DNA of 56,408 bases from Oscillospiraceae bacterium. GTDB lineage: Bacteria; Bacillota; Clostridia; Oscillospirales; Oscillospiraceae. Shown piece after piece: positions 1 through 18,840 of this stretch. Positions within the stretch are counted from its first letter, which is position 1; each line of letters begins with the position of its first letter. The notes beneath the pieces were generated by a model, which was not told where the DNA came from, made no database searches, and worked only from the letters and a program-made list of their open reading frames with translations. The position numbers were made by a program, and so were the translations under genes. The DNA lies in the NCBI GenBank assembly GCA_017397835.1, contig JAFQHV010000021.1, positions 1-56,408 of the forward strand, read 5' to 3'.

Positions 1-2156
<2,156 letters not shown>

Positions 2157-2837: not shown

Positions 2838-2876
2838 GTACCGCGAGGAGATTTGGATTTTGGGAGGATGAGAACG

Positions 2877-3737
2877 ATGTCAAAACGTGTCGCTGTTGTG
2901 GGACTGGGGTTGATTGGCGGGTCTATTGCCATGGCCTTGCAGGGATTTGAGGATTACGAGATCGTGGGTGTGGACGTGAGCGAGCCGACCTTGCGCTATG
3001 CGGCGGAGCATCACGTGGCTGACCGGGTGACGGGGGATGCCGGACAGGCGTTGGCGGAGGCGGACGTGGTCTTTCTGTGTCTGCACCCGCAGGGGATCGT
3101 GGATTTTCTGCAGCGGAACCGGGATGGGTTTAAGGCCGGCGCGCTGGTCACGGACGTGTGCGGCGTTAAGACCGCGATTGTGGAGGCGGCCAAGGTACTG
3201 CCGCCCGACGTGGGGTTTATCGGCGGGCATCCCATGGCCGGTACGGAGTTTTCCGGCGTGCAGAACGCGCTGAAACATATGTTCCGCGGTGCCCACTACA
3301 TCATCGTTCCAAATAAGAACAGCCGCCCGGATCAGGTCGCCCTGTTGGAGCGGATGGCCGCTTATATGGGGTGCCGGGACGTGGTCAAAACCACGCCGGA
3401 GCAGCACGATGCCATCATAGCCTACACCAGCCAGATGATGCACGTGATCGCCGTTTCCGTGTGTGACGATCCCAAACTGTTTGAGTTTATGGGGTTCGAG
3501 GGCGACTCCTTCCGGGGGTGCACCCGGGTGGCGGCGCTGGACGTTCCGCTGTGGACCCAGCTGTTTTCTCTCAATGCGCCCCAACTGGATGCGGCACTGG
3601 AGCGGCTGGAACAGAACATCGGTTCCTACCGGCAGGTGCTGCGCTCCGGGGACCGGAGGGCGCTGGCGGAAAAGCTGGAGTGGTCGGCCGACCGCAAGCG
3701 GCAGGTGAACCGCTGGGAACAGGAACATCAGACGTAA
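2877..3737 (+). CDS. tyrA: Prephenate dehydrogenase
   Basis: Converts prephenate to 4-hydroxyphenylpyruvate with NAD(P)+, the committed step to tyrosine. The 286-residue product has an N-terminal Rossmann fold (VAVVGLGLIGGS, residues 5-16), the catalytic-histidine motif GGHPMAGTE, and the helical dimerisation domain with HDAIIAYTSQMMH typical of TyrA. No ACT or chorismate-mutase domain is fused, so it is the monofunctional form. The ATG at 2877 is chosen because GGGAGG lies 9 bases upstream; a TTG at 2853 and an ATG at 2868 are poorly placed. It stands alone, 8.6 kb from the aro operon that carries pheA, so tyrosine and phenylalanine branches can be controlled separately. Confidence 0.94.
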   Translation: MSKRVAVVGLGLIGGSIAMALQGFEDYEIVGVDVSEPTLRYAAEHHVADRVTGDAGQALAEADVVFLCLHPQGIVDFLQRNRDGFKAGALVTDVCGVKTAIVEAAKVLPPDVGFIGGHPMAGTEFSGVQNALKHMFRGAHYIIVPNKNSRPDQVALLERMAAYMGCRDVVKTTPEQHDAIIAYTSQMMHVIAVSVCDDPKLFEFMGFEGDSFRGCTRVAALDVPLWTQLFSLNAPQLDAALERLEQNIGSYRQVLRSGDRRALAEKLEWSADRKRQVNRWEQEHQT

Positions 3738-11000: not shown

Positions 11001-11045
11001 TCAGTACTTGCGTGAAGGTTGTAGGCAGAATACAACGACGCGACA

Positions 11046-11136
11046 TGATGTTCCCTACGCTGGCATGATCCAGATCAGGTTAAAGGGTCTCGGGAAACAC
11101 CCGACTCTCAGCCCGTCTATTCGGACTCCCCATTGT
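11046..11136 (-). promoter_or_regulatory. TPP riboswitch (THI box aptamer)
   Basis: Read on the minus strand the segment contains the conserved THI-element pieces: GGGGAGTCC near 11130, CTGAGAGT near 11105, ACCCTTTAACCTGATCTGG near 11080 and ATGCCAGCGTAGGGA near 11058. These form the P2/P3 pyrimidine-sensing and P4/P5 pyrophosphate-sensing arms. Binding of TPP should favour the terminator at 10966-11000 and shut the thiXYZ operon off when thiamine is plentiful. The match to the family consensus is strong. Confidence 0.95.
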
Positions 11137-11143
11137 GAGGGCA

Positions 11144-11172: not shown

Positions 11173-11223
11173 GAGTTGACAAAAAACTTTTTTACTTTAA
11201 TGCGAAAAATTGCGTTTTGGTGG

Positions 11224-11252
11224 TTGCAATTCTTATTTGACAAGAGTATAAT
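11224..11252 (+). promoter_or_regulatory. Predicted sigma-A promoter of the aroF leader and operon
   Basis: TTGCAA (11224-11229), 17-base spacer, perfect TATAAT (11247-11252). It leads into the leader-peptide frame 30 bases downstream. Confidence 0.78.
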
Positions 11253-11282
11253 AAATCCATCTTTTCTGTGAGGTGTGCCGAA

Positions 11283-11387
11283 ATGCAGCATAACACCATC
11301 ACAACTGCATCCGTGTATTTTGGTTTTGGCTGGGCTCGATTTATGGGCACCGGCTTTTTTGGCGTGGACAAAACGATGAACGGATGA
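11283..11387 (+). CDS. Aromatic-rich leader peptide of the aro operon attenuator
   Basis: A 34-codon frame with its own GAGGTG ribosome-binding site 7 bases upstream. It holds five Phe (13, 15, 20, 25, 26), one Tyr (12) and one Trp (17), concentrated in VYFGFGWARF and in an FF pair. The TGA stop (11385-11387) lies inside the 5' arm of a predicted antiterminator, and a terminator follows 41 bases later, before aroF. This is the arrangement of amino-acid leader peptides such as those of pheA and trp operons. Function as a ribosome-stalling sensor of charged aromatic tRNAs is inferred; the peptide itself need not have a role. Confidence 0.78.
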   Translation: MQHNTITTASVYFGFGWARFMGTGFFGVDKTMNG

Positions 11388-11461
11388 GTGGCCGCTATAG
11401 GCACGGCAGGAAACCAACGTAAGTTTGGGCGCTCATTGAGTTCATCAATGGGCGCCTTTTT
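11384..11461 (+). promoter_or_regulatory. Antiterminator/terminator switch upstream of aroF
   Basis: Terminator: a 12-bp stem 11428-11439 / 11445-11456 (one G-T pair), five-base loop, then T5 (11457-11461), 35 bases before the aroF start. Antiterminator: 11384-11393 can pair with 11427-11436 (nine of ten positions, one of them G-T), using the terminator's 5' arm. The antiterminator's 5' arm begins at the leader stop codon, so a ribosome that finishes the leader masks it and the terminator forms, while a ribosome stalled at Phe/Tyr/Trp codons leaves it free. Confidence 0.78.
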
Positions 11462-11496
11462 GTATGTCCCGCGGGACGAAAGGAAGGGAAATCTGT

Positions 11497-12519
11497 ATGG
11501 TAATTATTATGAAACCCGGCACGAGCCAGGAGGCGATCCACGAACTGGTGGTGCGGCTGGAGCAGCAGGAGCAGGTGCAGGTGGGCGTGACCCACGGTGT
11601 TGGATGCTCTATTTTGGGTCTGGTGGGCGATACCGCGCATCTCGACATGCACAAGCTGGAAATGATTCCCGGTGTGGAGCGCGTGATGCGCGTGCAGGAG
11701 CCGTATAAGAAGGCCAACCGCAAGTTCCATCCAGAGGACAGCGTGGTCTCCGCCGCGGGCGTTCCTGTGGGCGGCGGCAGCTTTACCGTGGTGGCCGGCC
11801 CCTGCTCGGTGGAGAGCGAGGAGCAGATCATCGAGGTGGCCCGGGACGTGAAAGCGGCCGGCGCGGCCATGCTCCGGGGCGGCGCGTTCAAGCCCCGCAC
11901 GTCCCCCTATTCCTTCCAGGGCATGGGGCTGGACGGGCTGGAACTGCTCATGGAGGCCCGTCAGGACACGGGACTGCCCGTGGTCACCGAGATCATGAGT
12001 CCCAAGTACTGCGAGGTTTTTGAGGAAAAGGTGGATCTGGTGCAGGTGGGTGCCCGGAATATGCAGAATTTTGACCTTTTGAAAGAGGTCGGCAAGATGT
12101 CCAAGCCCGTACTGCTCAAGCGCGGCCTTTCCAACACCTATGAGGAATGGGTCATGTCCGCCGAGTACATCATGGCGGCGGGCAACGAGAACGTCATCCT
12201 GTGCGAGCGGGGCATCCGCACCTTTGAAACGGGCACCCGCAACACCTTTGACGTGTCCGCCATCCCCATGCTCAAGCGCATGAGCCATCTGCCCGTGGTG
12301 GTGGATCCTTCCCACGCGGGCGGTTATCACTGGCTGGTGGAGCCGCTGGCCATGTCCGCCATCGCGGCGGGTGCCGACGGCCTGATCGTAGAGGTGCACA
12401 ACGACCCCGCCCACGCCAAGTGTGACGGTCAGCAGTCCCTGACCCCGGAGCAGTTCGACCACCTGATGGGCAAGTCCGCCGCGCTGGTGGAGCTGATGGG
12501 GAAAACCTTTGTGAAATAA
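11497..12519 (+). CDS. aroF: 3-deoxy-7-phosphoheptulonate (DAHP) synthase, type I-beta
   Basis: Joins PEP and erythrose 4-phosphate, the first step of the shikimate pathway. The 340 residues have an N-terminal ferredoxin-like extension (about 1-70, MVIIMKPGTSQEAIHELV) usual in the PRTase/AroF I-beta group and often regulatory, then a TIM barrel from VVAGPCSVES. Metal and substrate motifs: AGPCS (metal Cys), RGGAFKPRTSPYSFQG, KRGLSNTYEEW, VVDPSHAGG (metal His) and VEVHNDP. The start is supported by AGGAAGGG upstream; a frame extending to 11464 enters the attenuator. First structural gene of the aro operon, 9 bases before aroB. Confidence 0.95.
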   Translation: MVIIMKPGTSQEAIHELVVRLEQQEQVQVGVTHGVGCSILGLVGDTAHLDMHKLEMIPGVERVMRVQEPYKKANRKFHPEDSVVSAAGVPVGGGSFTVVAGPCSVESEEQIIEVARDVKAAGAAMLRGGAFKPRTSPYSFQGMGLDGLELLMEARQDTGLPVVTEIMSPKYCEVFEEKVDLVQVGARNMQNFDLLKEVGKMSKPVLLKRGLSNTYEEWVMSAEYIMAAGNENVILCERGIRTFETGTRNTFDVSAIPMLKRMSHLPVVVDPSHAGGYHWLVEPLAMSAIAAGADGLIVEVHNDPAHAKCDGQQSLTPEQFDHLMGKSAALVELMGKTFVK

Positions 12520-12528
12520 GGTGTTCGT

Positions 12529-13620
12529 ATGAAAACTCTGTCCGTGGCCCTGCCGGGCCGGGAGTATGAAATCTATATTGAGTCGGGTCTGCTGGACCGG
12601 GCAGGGGAGCATATCCGCGCGGTTTGCCCCCGGGCCAAGCGCCTTTCGGTGGTCACCGACAGCAACGTTGCTCCCCTTTACCTGCAGAGGGTGCAGAATG
12701 CCTTGGCATCGGCGGGCTTTGCGGTGGAGGGTATCGTAGTGCCTGCCGGGGAGAGTTCCAAGAGCCTTGAGATGCTGGGGCAGCTCTATGGGCAGATGCT
12801 GGACTTTGGCCTGAGCCGCACCGATGCCGTGGTGGCGCTCGGCGGCGGCGTGGTGGGAGATCTGACCGGCTTTGCCGCGGCCACTGTGCTGCGTGGGGTG
12901 GACTTCATTCAAATTCCCACCACTCTGCTGGCACAGGTGGACTCCTCCGTGGGGGGCAAAGTGGCCATTGACCTGCCCGCGGGCAAAAATCTGGCGGGCA
13001 GCTTTTGGCAGCCCAAGGTGGTGCTGATGGACCCGGACTGCCTGAACACGCTGCCCGATGCGGTGTTCTGCGACGGAATGGCGGAGGTCATCAAGTACGG
13101 CTGCATCCGGGACGAGGCGTTTTTCCGCCTGCTGGATGGGTGCGGCAGCCGCGCCGGGGTCATGGCGCACATCGAGCAAGTGCTGCACACCTGTTGTGCC
13201 ATCAAGGCGGACATCGTCCGCGCGGACGAGCGGGAGAGCGGTCTGCGTATGCTGCTGAACTTCGGACACACCATCGGCCACGCCTTCGAGGTGGCCGGAG
13301 CGTACGAGAAATGGACCCACGGTCAGGCTGTGGCGGTGGGTATGCTGTGGGCGGCGCGCCTGGGTGCGCAGCTGGGCGTTACCCCGGCGCGTATCGAGGA
13401 AGAAATTGCCGCACTGCTGGCGAAATACGACTTGCCCCGCCATATCCCCTGCCCTTGGAACGTGATGGAGCACGCCGTGTGCCGGGATAAAAAGCGGGGG
13501 GACGGTGGCATCCGTGTGGTGCTGCTGAACGAGCTGGGACAGGCGTGCACCCGGGCGATGGAGATCCCCGACCTGCTGACGAACCTGAAAGAGCTGCATG
13601 GGCAGCGGGTGGGCCTATGA
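12529..13620 (+). CDS. aroB: 3-dehydroquinate synthase
   Basis: Converts DAHP to 3-dehydroquinate with catalytic NAD+ and a divalent metal. The 363-residue product shows GESSKS, the NAD-binding GGGVVGDLTGFAAA segment, and the substrate/metal region IPTTLLAQVDSSVGGKVAID followed by GKNLAGSFWQP. Metal ligands are expected in AEVIKYG (Glu), LNFGHTIGHAFE (His) and the later WTHGQAVAVGM (His). Full length. The stop overlaps the aroA start as ATGA. Confidence 0.96.
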   Translation: MKTLSVALPGREYEIYIESGLLDRAGEHIRAVCPRAKRLSVVTDSNVAPLYLQRVQNALASAGFAVEGIVVPAGESSKSLEMLGQLYGQMLDFGLSRTDAVVALGGGVVGDLTGFAAATVLRGVDFIQIPTTLLAQVDSSVGGKVAIDLPAGKNLAGSFWQPKVVLMDPDCLNTLPDAVFCDGMAEVIKYGCIRDEAFFRLLDGCGSRAGVMAHIEQVLHTCCAIKADIVRADERESGLRMLLNFGHTIGHAFEVAGAYEKWTHGQAVAVGMLWAARLGAQLGVTPARIEEEIAALLAKYDLPRHIPCPWNVMEHAVCRDKKRGDGGIRVVLLNELGQACTRAMEIPDLLTNLKELHGQRVGL

Positions 13621-14846
13621 ACGTAACTGTTACGCCGGGCAGGCTGTCCGGCTGCGTGACCCCGCCTACCTCCAAGTCCCAGGGGCACCGCCTTCTGCTG
13701 GCGGCGGCGCTGGCCGAGGGGGAGAGTGTGATCTGCGGTCTGTCCCCGTCCAAGGACATTGAGGCCACCACCGCCTGCATCTGCGCGTTGGGCGCGCAGG
13801 TGCGGCAGGAAGCCGACGGTCTGCACGTAGTGGGCCGGGGCGGCGGATTTGACCGCGAAAAGCCCAGGTTCTTTGACTGCGGCGAAAGCGGCTCCACCCT
13901 GCGGTTTATGATACCGATCTCCCTTGCGGTGGCGGGGGGCGGCAGCTTTACCGGCCGCGGACGGCTGATGGAACGGCCCCTGAAGCCCTATTTCGATATC
14001 TTTCAAAAACGCGACATCTATTACGCCCGGGAAGAGGGAAGCGAACGGGCCGGACTGGAGGGCGAGTTGACCCCGGGTGTGTACGAACTGCCCGGCGACG
14101 TGTCCAGCCAGTTTGTTACGGGATTGCTGTACGCCCTGCCCCTGCTGAAAGGGGACAGCCGCATCGTCATCACCACGACCCTGGAGAGCCGCGCTTACGT
14201 GGACATGACCCTGAATGTGCTGGCGCGGTTTGGTGTCGCGGCCCGCTGGGAGGGGGAGCAGACCCTGCTCGTTCCCGGAAATCAGCTGTATCGCCCCGCC
14301 CGTGTCAGCGTGGAGGGGGACTGGTCTCAGGCGGCGTTTTGGTACGCCGCCCGGACGTTGGGCAGCGACGTGGAGGTCTGCGGTATGGATGCCGCCTCCC
14401 GACAGGGGGACAAGTGCATCGCATCCTGCTGCGAACAACTGGCACAGGACGGCGAAGTGGAACTGGACGTATCCCAGTGCCCCGACCTTGTGCCCGCCCT
14501 TGGAGCGGTGGCGGCGGTGCGGCGGGGAACGACCCGCATCGTCAATGCCGCCCGCCTGCGCATCAAGGAGAGCGACCGGCTGACCGCCGTGGCGCAGGTG
14601 CTGAACGCCATGGGAGCGCAGGTGACGGAACTGCCCGACGGCTTGGTGATCGTGGGGCGGGAGTCCCTTACCGGAGGGGCAGAAATTGACAGTTACAACG
14701 ACCACCGCATCGCCATGATGGCGGCGGTGGCGGCCACCCGGTGCAAAACGCCGGTGACGGTACTGGGTGCGGAATGTGTGAACAAGTCCTATCCAAACTT
14801 CTGGGACGATTACAAGCGTTTGGGTGGGGAGATCGTTAGGAGTTGA
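13617..14846 (+). CDS. aroA: 3-phosphoshikimate 1-carboxyvinyltransferase (EPSP synthase)
   Basis: Transfers enolpyruvyl from PEP to shikimate 3-phosphate. The 409-residue product has the two inverse alpha/beta domains and the family motifs TSKSQGHRLLLAAALAEG, GESGSTLRFMIPI, GDVSSQFVTGLL, GDWSQAAFWYAA, RIKESDRL and SYNDHRIAM. The stretch that in E. coli reads GNAGTAMRP is here GESGSTLRF, so it is not a class I glyphosate-sensitive type by this motif; the class is not assigned. The start at 13617 overlaps aroB by 4 bases and gives the expected N-terminus MNVTVTPGRLSG. Confidence 0.95.
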   Translation: MNVTVTPGRLSGCVTPPTSKSQGHRLLLAAALAEGESVICGLSPSKDIEATTACICALGAQVRQEADGLHVVGRGGGFDREKPRFFDCGESGSTLRFMIPISLAVAGGGSFTGRGRLMERPLKPYFDIFQKRDIYYAREEGSERAGLEGELTPGVYELPGDVSSQFVTGLLYALPLLKGDSRIVITTTLESRAYVDMTLNVLARFGVAARWEGEQTLLVPGNQLYRPARVSVEGDWSQAAFWYAARTLGSDVEVCGMDAASRQGDKCIASCCEQLAQDGEVELDVSQCPDLVPALGAVAAVRRGTTRIVNAARLRIKESDRLTAVAQVLNAMGAQVTELPDGLVIVGRESLTGGAEIDSYNDHRIAMMAAVAATRCKTPVTVLGAECVNKSYPNFWDDYKRLGGEIVRS

Positions 14847-14850
14847 CGGT

Positions 14851-15897
14851 ATGAAATACACCATCTTTGGGGAGTCCCACGGCCCCGCCATCGGCGTGGT
14901 GCTGGAGGGTGTGCCTGCGGGATTGGAGCTGGATATGCAGGCACTTGCCCGTGAACTGGACCGCCGCCGCCCCAAGGCGGACGGCCTGTCCACCGCCCGG
15001 CGGGAAGGGGACGAGGTAACACTCGTCTCCGGCGTATTTGAGGGCAAGACCACCGGTGCGCCCCTGTGTGCCATGATCGAAAATGCCGACACCCGGTCCG
15101 GCGATTACGAGAGAACGAAAAATCTGGCCCGGCCCGGCCACGCGGATTGGCCCGCCCATGTGCGCTACGGCGGGTGCAACGATTACCGCGGCGGCGGCCA
15201 TTTCTCCGGGCGGCTCACTGCTCCGCTGGTCTTTGCCGGGGCGGTGGCCAAGCAGCTGCTGGCGCAGAAGGGCGTGTTTGTGGGCGCCCATATCAGCAGC
15301 ATTTACGGCATCTCCGATGCCGCTATGGAGGACTTGCCATCCCTGCAGGCGGTGGCGGACAAGGATTTCCCCGTGCTGGACGATGGGGCGGGGGAAGCGA
15401 TGAAGACCGCCATTCTGGAGGCGAAAGAGGAACAGGACAGCGTGGGCGGCAGCATTGAGTGCGGCGTGTTCGGTCTGCCGGTGGGACTTGGCGGCCCGGA
15501 TCTGTGGGACAATGCCGAGGGCATCTTCGCCCGGTATCTGTTCGCGGTGCCGGCAGTCAAGGCCGTTGGCTTCGGCGCGGGGGCGGCCTTCGCCCTCATG
15601 CGCGGATCAGAGGCCAACGATCCCCTCTTTGTGGACGATGACGGCACCGTGAAAGCCGAGCAAAACTGCGCCGGGGGGATCAACGGCGGCATCACCAACG
15701 GCATGCCCCTGACCTTTGAGGTGACCATGCGGCCCACACCCTCCATTGCCCGGACCCAGTTTACCGTGGATATGGATAAAATGGAAAATGCCGAGCTGGA
15801 GCTGAAGGGGCGCCACGACCCCTGCGTGGTGCATCGCGCCGTACCTGTCATTGAGGCGGCAGCGGCCCTTGCCGCCTGTGAGCTGATGGGGATTTGA
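14851..15897 (+). CDS. aroC: Chorismate synthase
   Basis: Makes chorismate from EPSP using reduced FMN. The 348-residue product begins MKYTIFGESHGPAIGVVLEG with the conserved FGESHG, followed by DRRRPKADGLSTARREGDEV, RPGHADW (catalytic His) and YRGGGHFSGRLTAP. The later NGGITNGMPL and MRPTPSIARTQ are also family signatures. Slightly short for the family but complete. Start 14851 lies 4 bases after aroA and is preceded by GGAG. It ends 17 bases before pheA. Confidence 0.96.
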   Translation: MKYTIFGESHGPAIGVVLEGVPAGLELDMQALARELDRRRPKADGLSTARREGDEVTLVSGVFEGKTTGAPLCAMIENADTRSGDYERTKNLARPGHADWPAHVRYGGCNDYRGGGHFSGRLTAPLVFAGAVAKQLLAQKGVFVGAHISSIYGISDAAMEDLPSLQAVADKDFPVLDDGAGEAMKTAILEAKEEQDSVGGSIECGVFGLPVGLGGPDLWDNAEGIFARYLFAVPAVKAVGFGAGAAFALMRGSEANDPLFVDDDGTVKAEQNCAGGINGGITNGMPLTFEVTMRPTPSIARTQFTVDMDKMENAELELKGRHDPCVVHRAVPVIEAAAALAACELMGI

Positions 15898-15914: not shown

Positions 15915-17069
15915 ATGGACGAATTGAAGCAATACAGAGCGGAGATCGACGTCATTGACCGCCAGCTCACCGACCTGTTCCGCCGGCGCATGGCGGTAGT
16001 GGACAAGGTGGGGCGGTACAAGCTGGACCGGGGCATCCCCGTGCTGGACCCGACCCGGGAGCGTGAGGTGCTGGCTGAAAAGGCGGCTATGGCAGCTGAC
16101 CCGGCGGACCGGGCCGACCTGACCGCCATGTTTGAAAACCTGATGGCCATCAGCCGCCGCAGACAGCGCAAGCTCATCCACGAGGGAGGCGGCAACCCCG
16201 GTTACGATCGCTGCAGGCGGGCGCTGGCGGCAGTGCGTGAGCCGGTTTCCAACCCCAGGGTGGTCTATCAGGGGGTGGCGGGCGCGTACAGCGAGATGGC
16301 CTGCATCAACTTCTTTGGCGACACTTCGGAAAATATCGGGGTGGAGCAGTTTGAGGATGCGTTTCGCGCGGTCAAGGAGGGGCGGGCGGACTACGCCGTT
16401 GTACCCATCGAGAACAGCACCAGCGGTGCCATCCGTCAGGTGTACGACCTGATGAGCGAGTACGACTGTTACATCGTGGGGGAGACCACGGTAAAGGTGG
16501 AGCACTGCCTGATGGCGCCCCGCGGGGCGAGCCTGGATACCATCACCCACGTCTACTCCCATGAGCAGGCGCTGTTCCAGTCCGATCGGTTTTTGAACGC
16601 TCACCCCAACTGGGTGCAGGTGCCCTGCGCCGACACGGCGGGGGCGGCCCAGTACGTGGCGCAGACCGGGGACATGACCAAGGCTGCCATCTGCTCGGAG
16701 CGGGCGGCGGAGCTGTACGGACTGGACATTCTGCTTCGGGGCACCAACCACAACGCCAACAACACCACCCGTTTCGTGGTGGTCAGTCCCGCAATGGAAC
16801 TGCGGGCGGGGGCGGACAAGGTCAGCGTGGTGTTTTCCCTGCCCCATGAGGCGGGCAGCCTGCACCGCATTATGAGCATTTTTGCCGTCAACGGATTGAA
16901 CATGACCAAGCTGGAGTCCCGGCCCATGCCCGGTCACAGCTGGGAGTATATGTTTTTCCTGGAGTTCCACGGCAGCCTGACGGCGCCGGAGATGGACGGG
17001 ATCCTGCACGAACTGGCTCAGACTACCGCCCAGTTCCGGGTGCTGGGCAACTTCGTGTCCAATCTGTGA
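15915..17069 (+). CDS. pheA: Bifunctional chorismate mutase / prephenate dehydratase (P-protein)
   Basis: Converts chorismate to prephenate and then phenylpyruvate. The 384 residues contain an AroQ-type chorismate mutase (about 1-90, EIDVIDRQLTDLFRRRM with the catalytic Arg, and RGIPVLDPTRER), the dehydratase domain (about 110-285, YQGVAGAYSEMA, VPIENSTSGAI, NNTTRFVVVS), and a C-terminal ACT domain (about 295-370, LPHEAGSLHRIMSIF, LTKLESRP variant NMTKLESRPMPG) for feedback by phenylalanine. The start at 15915 has AAGAAGGTG upstream. Its place in the aro operon means general shikimate flux and the Phe branch share one transcript, in keeping with a Phe-rich leader peptide. Confidence 0.96.
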   Translation: MDELKQYRAEIDVIDRQLTDLFRRRMAVVDKVGRYKLDRGIPVLDPTREREVLAEKAAMAADPADRADLTAMFENLMAISRRRQRKLIHEGGGNPGYDRCRRALAAVREPVSNPRVVYQGVAGAYSEMACINFFGDTSENIGVEQFEDAFRAVKEGRADYAVVPIENSTSGAIRQVYDLMSEYDCYIVGETTVKVEHCLMAPRGASLDTITHVYSHEQALFQSDRFLNAHPNWVQVPCADTAGAAQYVAQTGDMTKAAICSERAAELYGLDILLRGTNHNANNTTRFVVVSPAMELRAGADKVSVVFSLPHEAGSLHRIMSIFAVNGLNMTKLESRPMPGHSWEYMFFLEFHGSLTAPEMDGILHELAQTTAQFRVLGNFVSNL

Positions 17070-17075
17070 GGGATT

Positions 17076-17579
17076 ATGAAAAACATTGTACTGATCGGTA
17101 TGCCCGGCTGCGGTAAAAGTGCCGTGGGCAGGCTGCTGGGTGAGATGCTGAATATGCCCCTTGTGGACACCGACACCATGGTGGAGCAGGAACAGGGCAT
17201 GACCATACCTGAAATCTTTGAACAATTTGGAGAACCGGCGTTCCGGGACATGGAGAGTCGGGCGGCAAAAACCGCTGCGGCCATGGATGGTGCGGTCATC
17301 GCCACCGGCGGCGGCATGGTGCTGCGGCAGGAGAATATGCAGGCGCTGTCCGGCACCGGCGTGGTCTTTTTCCGTGACCGGGCAGTGGCGGACATCGCCG
17401 GTCAGGATATGACCGACCGACCCCTTGTGGGGGCGGGCAGCGACCGACTGTACGAGCTGTACGAACAGCGTATCGGGCTGTACCGCAAATATGCCGACTA
17501 CATTATTTCCGACACCCAAACGGCACAGCAGGCGGCGGAGCGGATCGCCGCGCTGTATGCACAGGAGTGTGAAGTATGA
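17076..17579 (+). CDS. aroK: Shikimate kinase
   Basis: Phosphorylates shikimate at O3 with ATP. The 167-residue P-loop kinase has Walker A GMPGCGKSAVG at residues 8-18, the shikimate-binding DTDTMVEQ (about 31-38) and the ATGGGMVL loop (about 74-81). The lid region holds MTDRPLVG. Length is normal for a monofunctional AroK. Six bases after pheA; the stop overlaps aroQ by 4 bases. Confidence 0.94.
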   Translation: MKNIVLIGMPGCGKSAVGRLLGEMLNMPLVDTDTMVEQEQGMTIPEIFEQFGEPAFRDMESRAAKTAAAMDGAVIATGGGMVLRQENMQALSGTGVVFFRDRAVADIAGQDMTDRPLVGAGSDRLYELYEQRIGLYRKYADYIISDTQTAQQAAERIAALYAQECEV

Positions 17580-18010
17580 AATTTCTCATTATCAACGGGC
17601 CAAACCTGAACCTGCTGGGCAGGCGTGAGCCGGACATCTACGGCAGGCGCACCTACACGGACCTGTGCCGGCTGGTACAGGACTACGCCGCCGACCACGG
17701 CAGCACGGCGGACTGCTTCCAGTCCAACCATGAGGGGGCCATCATCGACGCCATCCACGCCGCCGACGGGGTGTATGATGCCATCATCATCAACCCTGCG
17801 GCGTACACCCACTATAGCTATGCCATTCTGGATGCGCTGAAAGCGGTGGATGTGCCTGCCTTTGAGGTGCATATTTCCGACATTGACAGCCGGGAGAGCT
17901 TCCGCGCCGTGTCCGTTACCGCCCCGGCCTGTGTGGGGCAGATCTACGGCCGCGGCTTTGAGGGATACTGTATGGCCATGGACCACTTTTTGAAGGGTGA
18001 CAAAGGATGA
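17576..18010 (+). CDS. aroQ: 3-dehydroquinate dehydratase, type II
   Basis: Dehydrates 3-dehydroquinate to 3-dehydroshikimate. The 144-residue type II enzyme shows NGPNLNLLGRREPDIYG with the catalytic Tyr, SNHEGAIIDAIH, INPAAYTHYSYAI and EVHISDIDSRESFR (His and Arg of the active site). Homododecameric flavodoxin-like fold in the family. It overlaps aroK and aroE by 4 bases on each side, so translation is tightly coupled. Confidence 0.96.
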   Translation: MKFLIINGPNLNLLGRREPDIYGRRTYTDLCRLVQDYAADHGSTADCFQSNHEGAIIDAIHAADGVYDAIIINPAAYTHYSYAILDALKAVDVPAFEVHISDIDSRESFRAVSVTAPACVGQIYGRGFEGYCMAMDHFLKGDKG

Positions 18011-18840
18011 AAAAGCTGTGTGTCATCGGTGACCCCATCCATCACTCCCTGTCCCCGGTCATTCAGAATGCCATGATCGCCGCGGCGGGGCTGGATCTCA
18101 CCTATGGTGCCTGCCGGGTGGCGGGGGAAGATACCGCGCGCTGGTTGACCCGGGCAAAAACAGAGGGTTACGCCGGATTCAACGCCACCATGCCCCACAA
18201 AGAAAATCTGCTGACCCTTGTGGATGAACTGTCTGTGGATGCCGCCCGGATCGGCGCGGTGAACACCGTGTGCATCCGGGACGGCAAGGTGTACGGCTGC
18301 AACACCGATGCAGAGGGCGTTCTGCGTGCTCTCCGGGAGGCGGGCATGGCGCCCGAGGGCAAGCGGGTGCTGGTGCTGGGCGCCGGCGGCGCGGCCCGGG
18401 CGGTGGTGTACAAGCTGGTGCAGGCGGGGGCGGCGCGCGTGGTCGCTGCCAACCGGACCGTGGAGCGGGCGGAGCGGCTGTGCGGGGAGTTTGGGGCGGT
18501 TGCCTGCGATTTCTCCGCGGATACCCTTGCCCGCTATGCCGCCCAAAGCGACCTGCTGGTCAACTGCACCAACCTGGGTATGACCGGGGTGGCGGGGCAG
18601 TTTGCGGATTTGTCTTTCTTGGAACACCTGCCTGCCCATGCCGGGGTGTTTGACCTCATCTACAGCCCCCGGAAGACTGCTTTGCTGGCCCGGGCGGAGC
18701 AGTTGGGGTTGCAAATTTCCAACGGACTTGATATGCTGATATGGCAGGGTGTATTTGCCCTGGAGCATTTTGCCAATGAACGGCTGGACGAGGCTGCCCT
18801 TGCGGCGGCGGCCCGGGCGGCACTGGAGGAATTGGAATGA
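18007..18840 (+). CDS. aroE: Shikimate dehydrogenase
   Basis: Reduces 3-dehydroshikimate to shikimate with NADPH. The 277-residue product has the N-terminal substrate domain (GDPIHHSLSPVIQNAM; FNATMPHKENL with the catalytic Lys; GAVNTVCI; CNTDAEG with the catalytic Asp) and a Rossmann domain with VLGAGGAARAVVYKL near residue 123. The C-terminal GLDMLIWQG is typical. Overlaps aroQ and the following SDR gene by 4 bases each. Confidence 0.96.
   Translation: MKKLCVIGDPIHHSLSPVIQNAMIAAAGLDLTYGACRVAGEDTARWLTRAKTEGYAGFNATMPHKENLLTLVDELSVDAARIGAVNTVCIRDGKVYGCNTDAEGVLRALREAGMAPEGKRVLVLGAGGAARAVVYKLVQAGAARVVAANRTVERAERLCGEFGAVACDFSADTLARYAAQSDLLVNCTNLGMTGVAGQFADLSFLEHLPAHAGVFDLIYSPRKTALLARAEQLGLQISNGLDMLIWQGVFALEHFANERLDEAALAAAARAALEELE

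Follow-up and report, generated by a model that had tools for sequence, protein, structure and literature searches.

A conserved aromatic leader ORF and a probable transcription attenuator before the shikimate operon of Oscillospiraceae

Introduction

The pheL and trpL attenuators of Escherichia coli follow a logic of three alternative pairings (1:2, 2:3 and 3:4), with the control codons in the 5' side and a polymerase-pausing hairpin. In the Bacillota, the T-box is the device expected for amino-acid genes, and discussions of how the aromatic pathway is controlled usually centre on T-boxes and TRAP. For aroF itself, leader-peptide control is known from Corynebacterium and has been predicted for Acholeplasma, as far as the sources cited here describe it. 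In Corynebacterium glutamicum, a leader peptide with Phe-Tyr-Phe, aroR, lies before aroF; in the account of Neshat et al. 2014 given in PMC11802643, which also names pheL and trpL of E. coli, stalling under Phe limitation enhances transcription and Tyr availability has no effect. The aroR leader is also given as a prediction in PMC4046766. The uORFC-13-1 motif is described in PMC8632094 as a predicted upstream open reading frame (ORF) that contains one or more Phe codons and is followed by a terminator and aroF; its 24 representatives come only from Acholeplasma and environmental sequences. Predicted histidine leader peptides take the place of T-boxes before hisS and hisZ of bacilli (PMC2965389).

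Here we analyze a leader in the DNA of an Oscillospiraceae bacterium. The window, i.e. the whole stretch analyzed, has 56,408 nucleotides and comes from an assembly (G000) of 1.84 Mb in 43 contigs. As described in its sources, aroR has in common with this leader an aromatic leader peptide ahead of aroF, but it belongs to another phylum; the leader studied here is followed by an entire shikimate operon that includes pheA, its ORF contains a conserved hairpin, and relatives have a Tyr-tuned sister before aroF-tyrA. Compared by description, uORFC-13-1 is alike in its Phe upstream ORF, terminator and aroF. The pairing logic, the control codons in the 5' side and the pausing hairpin proposed for this leader are those of pheL and trpL, but those attenuators belong to a different phylum and different genes, and here segments 1 and 2 are separated by a further conserved hairpin that holds aromatic codons. 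None of the Rfam leader families matches this leader. The hisS and hisZ leaders are likewise Firmicute leader peptides, as described, but concern histidine and tRNA synthetase genes. T-box leaders are present elsewhere in the genome of the window, and none precedes this operon. The open literature that we searched, with subscription papers mostly outside it, contained no description of the system in Clostridia or Oscillospiraceae, nor an earlier one of the ORF-embedded hairpin, the breadth in the phylum or the Phe/Tyr tuning.

Results

All features of the leader lie on the plus strand. A sigma-A-like promoter (TTGCAA-17-TATAAT, 11224-11252) is followed by a Shine-Dalgarno (SD)-like GAGG (11270-11273), 9 nt before the ATG at 11283 of an ORF of 34 codons plus TGA (11283-11387, stop codon 11385-11387). 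Its peptide has relatives directly upstream of type I aroF (see below), and its aromatic codons are Phe 13, 15, 20, 25 and 26, Tyr 12 and Trp 17. A sequence-only reading of the window had proposed this promoter, SD and frame, and sequence and scans confirmed them. The terminator that it placed before aroF is also there (11427-11457), with 13 pairs including wobbles, not 12, a loop of 5 and then U5. We call its 5' arm, GGGCGCTCATTGA, segment 3 (11427-11439), and its 3' arm (11445-11457) with the U-tract segment 4 (11445-11461). Segment 1 (11304-11319; core CATCCGT, 11308-11314) is the 5' side of a long 1:2 stem. Segment 2 (11375-11393), around the leader stop, has segment 1 or the terminator 5' arm as alternative partners: 11380-11386 can pair with 11308-11314, or 11383-11393 with 11427-11437. 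The latter duplex (-16.4 kcal/mol) was matched by 1.9% of 1000 shuffles, in agreement with the proposal that 11384-11393 pairs with the terminator 5' arm, except that this segment begins one base before the stop codon and not at it.

Within the ORF, a hairpin (11328-11355) spans the codons for G-W-A-R-F-M-G-T-G, with the loop CGATTT at 11337-11342, and T6 (11355-11360, codons Phe25-Phe26) follows it. A single-sequence fold of 11258-11466 contained the ORF hairpin, the stop-region pairing and the terminator, and 3 of 200 shuffles folded equally well; the 1:2 stem, judged from the window sequence alone, was not exceptional (p 0.14). As had been stated before, the window has no T-box match (RF00230) that reaches the gathering score of Rfam, and a search of 11200-11520 against Rfam 15 gave no relevant family even at E 10.

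Pfam domain assignment of the ORFs gave the order aroF-aroB-aroA-aroC-pheA-aroK-aroQ-aroE after the leader, overlapping or closely spaced on the plus strand. The first controlled gene is aroF (DAHP synthase, 11497-12519; PF00793, PF18152), followed by aroB (12529-13620; PF01761, PF24621), aroA (EPSP synthase, 13617-14846, start not fixed; PF00275), aroC (14851-15897, start not fixed; PF01264), pheA (chorismate mutase-prephenate dehydratase, 15918-17069; PF01817, PF00800), aroK (17076-17579; PF01202), aroQ (17576-18010; PF01220) and aroE (18007-18840; PF08501). The nearest named AroF (99% identity) comes from the metagenome-assembled genome of an Oscillospiraceae member of goat caecum. On the minus strand, a TPP riboswitch (RF00059, 56.9 bits, 11035-11142) heads a divergent operon (10940-8135) whose ORFs resemble, by eye, thiamine-related ABC transport, the first gene being small and thiamine-binding-like. 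The genome's tyrA (2853-3737, PF02153) is separate from the aro operon, and a search for a Tyr or other aromatic leader before it found none; by eye, its promoter region (TTGACTTT...GAAAGTGTTAAAGT) is similar to stretches upstream of the type II aroF of relatives.

AroF was present in 117 of 150 genomes of the family (E 1e-60), in two types: type I is window-like, most being 71-79% identical, and type II is about 60% identical. Two congeners of G000 (G039 and G128) showed only type II and G000 only type I, which suggests the loss of one paralogue or transfer. Named genomes were scanned as well, and of 475 AroF relatives the best 80 were kept. A leader was called at 71 of these 80 Oscillospiraceae-type loci and a 72nd (L119) was found with a longer upstream stretch, so that the short frame expected in relatives is conserved at 72 of the best 80 of 475; it is also present in the cultured Flavonifractor plautii (L155). 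It was not found at eight of the 80. Three of these (L115, L140 and L148) keep a promoter-like site and the GCTCATGG terminator, which in L115 comes almost directly after the promoter; at the other five (L109, L114, L116, L117 and L120) aroF stands right behind a cytidine deaminase-like gene, with a promoter-like site of its own.

The consensus core of the leader is [FY]-x-F-x-[FY]-G-W-[AT]-R-F-x-G-x-G-[FY]-F. Phe occurs in all 71 leaders, Trp in 64 and Tyr in 57, with all three in 51; L167, L169 and L124 have a divergent NRFYGYF-like peptide, and the first two start with GTG as called. When the peptide was used as a query, 32 of 150 genomes matched with an E-value of 1 or less. Not counting that of the window, the top 17 matches (E up to 0.0135) are immediately 5' of type I aroF, and several weaker ones lie elsewhere. 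Among the 69 testable leaders of the 71, a TTGNNN-16..19-TANNNT pattern precedes 67 (shuffled rate 0.0425) and an SD-like motif 65. A terminator-like hairpin, compensated variants included, lies 3' of 70 of the 71 (the pick for L134 looks wrong), at a median of 47 nt from the stop codon (range 24-70, where 24 is the doubtful pick of L134).

The leader codons follow the product of the operon. All 13 dual-aroF genomes tested have tyrA (PF02153) within 1.3 kb downstream of type II aroF, as do 10 of the 11 genomes tested that lack type I (G039 being the exception), and pheA (PF00800) lies downstream of aroF on the type I contig in 12 of 13 dual genomes (on another contig in G030). Of 25 genomes with both types, 18 gave both leaders, picked by eye from ORF lists; in G026, G121, G077, G146, G116, G075 and G050 a leader was absent or unclear on one or both sides. 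In the 18 genomes the aromatic codons were F90:Y19:W17 in type I leaders versus F31:Y94:W8 in type II. The mean Tyr share per leader was 14% versus 73%, and it was higher in the type II leader in all 18 pairs (Wilcoxon p 2e-4). In G003, for example, the leader of the aroF close to pheA contains FYYSFSFTNFFF and that of the aroF close to tyrA contains YVYYYFYFVF, and no leader was found for a third aroF. In genomes with two aroF operons, a Phe leader goes with pheA and a Tyr leader with tyrA.

The Trp codon gave a different picture. The N-terminal domain of trpE (PF04715) was not found in G000 (96% complete) or in five of seven other genomes, among them G078 and G128, each assembled in one contig. 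This leaves the Trp codon without a link to Trp synthesis here. Moreover, the codon sits in the stem of the ORF hairpin, where some changes of Trp to Tyr, Phe or Cys go with compensating changes opposite. Trp sensing is unlikely on both counts. Upstream of the two trpE genes that were found among the eight genomes (G074 and G064) there is no ORF with at least two Trp codons and no Rfam match over the gathering score. These two regions (L290 and L291) do have a common structured-looking leader (CCGATGATGTGGAGATAACG...GCTGAGAGCCGGGCAG) that is T-box-like by eye, below that score.

We also looked for aromatic-rich ORFs beyond type I, requiring at least 7 aromatics in 20 codons of the best ORF and using the reverse strand as the control. 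Such ORFs preceded 53 of the 80 named type I loci (best 80 of 475) versus 0 on the reverse strand. Type II aroF gave 17 of 22 versus 0 in a first set, four members of which (L070-L073) come from dual genomes, and 10 of 19 versus 2 in a second. The class sample had one locus from each of 40 families, three in the order of the window, and the phylum sample 20 families outside the class; both were chosen among the matches listed (211 of 293 and 253 of 298 genomes, respectively) and thus lean to closer AroF. Among the matches listed, aromatic-rich ORFs preceded aroF in 34 of 39 class loci (L215 was too short) versus 7 of 39 on the reverse strand, and in 14 of 20 phylum loci versus 1 of 20, where L272 and L288 are doubtful because of their position or the lack of a terminator. 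A T-box above the Rfam gathering score preceded aroF in one upstream stretch of the 40 from the class and one of the 20 from the phylum (L223 and L289). The window's genome itself has 13 T-box matches at E 1e-3, six above the cut-off, and one stands before an ORF that resembles tyrS by eye.

We examined the pairing of the segments in 67 loci, leaving out L124, L134, L167 and L169. In a bulge-tolerant duplex permutation, the true 1:2 combinations were 3.3 kcal/mol better than permuted ones (p 5e-5), and 3.0 kcal/mol better in the 44 non-redundant loci of less than 80% identity (p 5e-5). The single-locus z averaged -1.24, and a fixed-register count gave p 0.014 (28 loci) and 0.013 (37 loci). Most loci have GCTCATTGA or GCTCATGG as segment 3, which is conserved, and segment 2 resembles the terminator 3' arm and could replace it in pairing with segment 3. 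Measured against shuffles, 2:3 pairing had a mean z of -1.17 in type I (standard error 0.13, n=64), -0.57 in the class sample (standard error 0.23, n=31) and -0.37 in the first type II set (standard error 0.29, n=19); the second type II set, all dual genomes, showed no excess (z +0.17, n=13). The permutation p for 2:3 co-evolution was 0.018 for all 67 loci, 0.06 for the non-redundant ones and 0.51 in the window's own subgroup, and an earlier swap test favoured the true pairs in only 61% of comparisons. The pairing strength in type I would fit the proposal that freed segment 2 acts as an antiterminator; co-evolution of 2:3 is weak over all loci and absent in the window's subgroup.

The ORF-internal hairpin has the pattern GGCTGGnnYCGATTTA...CGGC, capped by the bases CGA-TTT and followed by U-rich Phe/Tyr codons; 52 of 66 leaders have five or more T within 8 nt there. 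The pattern occurred once each in 24 of 150 genomes, in 23 of them upstream of aroF by position (the exception being G029; reading the sequence confirmed the match in G115), and its reversed form, the control, gave 4 matches. Thirty distinct cores in the unbulged register (26 rows by rule and 4 by eye; 15 of 45 rows were left out) had 89.1% of cells paired versus 83.7% in shuffles (0/500 as high) and 11 double-change cells versus 3.3 (0/500). All 45 cores had 83.2% paired versus 79.3%. Pairs with double changes (2 versus 2.2) and pair types (12 versus 10.6) did not exceed the shuffles, with no clear excess in either the 30- or the 45-core set. RNAalifold gave a near-zero consensus on the mixed 45 rows, in our opinion because two stem registers are mixed. 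A pairing partner of the CGAUUU loop was also sought, and none is conserved, since TAAATCG (2 of 71 leader regions) and AAATC (23 of 71) have no common place.

Codon choice in the leaders is skewed relative to ORFs of the same loci: TTT accounts for 259 of 344 Phe codons versus 33%, TAT for 73 of 92 Tyr codons versus 34%, and CGA for 86 of 161 Arg codons versus 5.4%. The preference may serve the U-tract or slow decoding. The conserved Arg is CGA in 67 of 68 type I leaders, and TTT encodes the next residue in 68 of 69 with Phe. Variability at third codon positions does not exceed that at first and second ones (entropies 0.86, 0.94 and 0.855), so the usual coding signature is absent from type I, which we put down to RNA constraint. 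Could the RNA itself, then, be a metabolite or protein site, the CGAUUU hairpin and 1:2 stem acting on the terminator with the ORF incidental? The near-invariant CGATTT in 45 distinct cores, the CGA codon and the constrained third positions would fit such an RNA, but it would leave aside that type II and distant aroF have aromatic ORFs of a sequence unlike the type I leader, that Tyr stands in place of Phe where tyrA stands in place of pheA, and that SD-like sites precede nearly all leaders. We consider it unlikely.

Another possibility is an arrest peptide, for which TnaC is the precedent, that would respond to a ligand within the exit tunnel, free Phe or some other, and not to tRNA charging. 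Non-aromatic residues are indeed conserved (R-F and G-x-G in type I), and [SGNF]-[AVTFS]-G-x occurs in 20 of 45 class and phylum leaders versus 5.4 when shuffled; a second motif, [FY]-[SGT]-[WQ]-x-[YFR]-[YF], occurs in 9 of 45 versus 0.09, both motifs having been chosen post hoc on leaders picked by eye. However, Phe and Tyr interchange at several columns, aromatic positions vary freely among lineages, and the conserved Arg may stem from the nucleotide-level CGA, which makes an arrest peptide quite improbable. A constitutive terminator with a chance ORF, which the eight leaderless loci and the terminators kept at three of them might suggest, is hardly credible, because an SD, an ORF with at least 6 aromatics per 20 codons and a terminator occur together in 61 of 79 type I aroF upstreams (best 80 of 475, one too short) versus 6 of 1201 upstreams of other ORFs of the same loci, and because conservation and product matching already largely refute it.

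Discussion

Comparison of the loci revealed a conserved leader, its internal hairpin, a 1:2 stem, a terminator and a match between codons and operon product. We put at roughly 80% the probability that the operon is controlled by ribosome-mediated transcription attenuation in response to the supply of Phe, and probably Tyr. This supports the earlier proposal of an aromatic leader-peptide attenuator for the whole aroF-to-aroE operon including pheA. The proposal was right in kind and too narrow in scope; the 1:2 stem and the ORF-internal hairpin, where the covariation evidence is best, were not part of it. Leader and hairpins are conserved in relatives, with compensatory changes in the hairpins, the opposite of what would have spoken against the proposal at the sequence level. 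The proposed sensing of charged tRNA agrees with the Phe/Tyr codons and their operon products, but not in its Trp part. Varying sequence with constant aromatic codons, also expected, is seen in the wider class and not in type I, which is constrained at the nucleotide level too.

From these features we infer polymerase pausing, leader translation, stalling, 2:3 formation and termination, as follows. RNA polymerase would start at the promoter, and the ORF-internal hairpin with its U-tract would probably pause it while the ribosome catches up. If the leader is not translated, 1:2 would pair and 3:4 would terminate. When charged tRNA is ample, the ribosome at the stop codon would cover segment 2, and 3:4 would again terminate. 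When charged tRNA-Phe (and Tyr) is scarce, the ribosome would stall on the aromatic codons and hold 1:2 open, and segment 2, freed by the stall, would capture segment 3, so that aroF to aroE are transcribed. Antitermination would need to be kinetic, because in equilibrium folds of the RNA past a stalled ribosome the terminator remains the minimum. The switch probably turns on the whole aromatic operon of this gut Firmicute when charged tRNA is short.

In the majority of the relatives sampled, similar switches appear to precede the first gene of the shikimate pathway. Among the matches listed, T-boxes are rare before aroF (1/40 and 1/20) and aromatic-rich ORFs are common (34/39 and 14/20). A broader reading, for which we see about even odds, is that one old family of aromatic leader-peptide attenuators governs entry to aromatic synthesis across much of the phylum, with Phe and Tyr codons swapped as separate pheA and tyrA branches of the operon arise. 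The ORF hairpin with its near-invariant CGAUUU loop would then be an addition in the lineage of the window, one that overlaps the control codons and serves for pausing or as a second sensor. In this hairpin, coding sequence and conserved RNA structure lie on identical bases. Where one genome has paired operons of the pheA and tyrA types, whose leaders differ mainly in Phe and Tyr codons, nature would have provided an experiment on how attenuators gain their specificity, and such pairs would be accessible in cultured bacteria such as Flavonifractor plautii.
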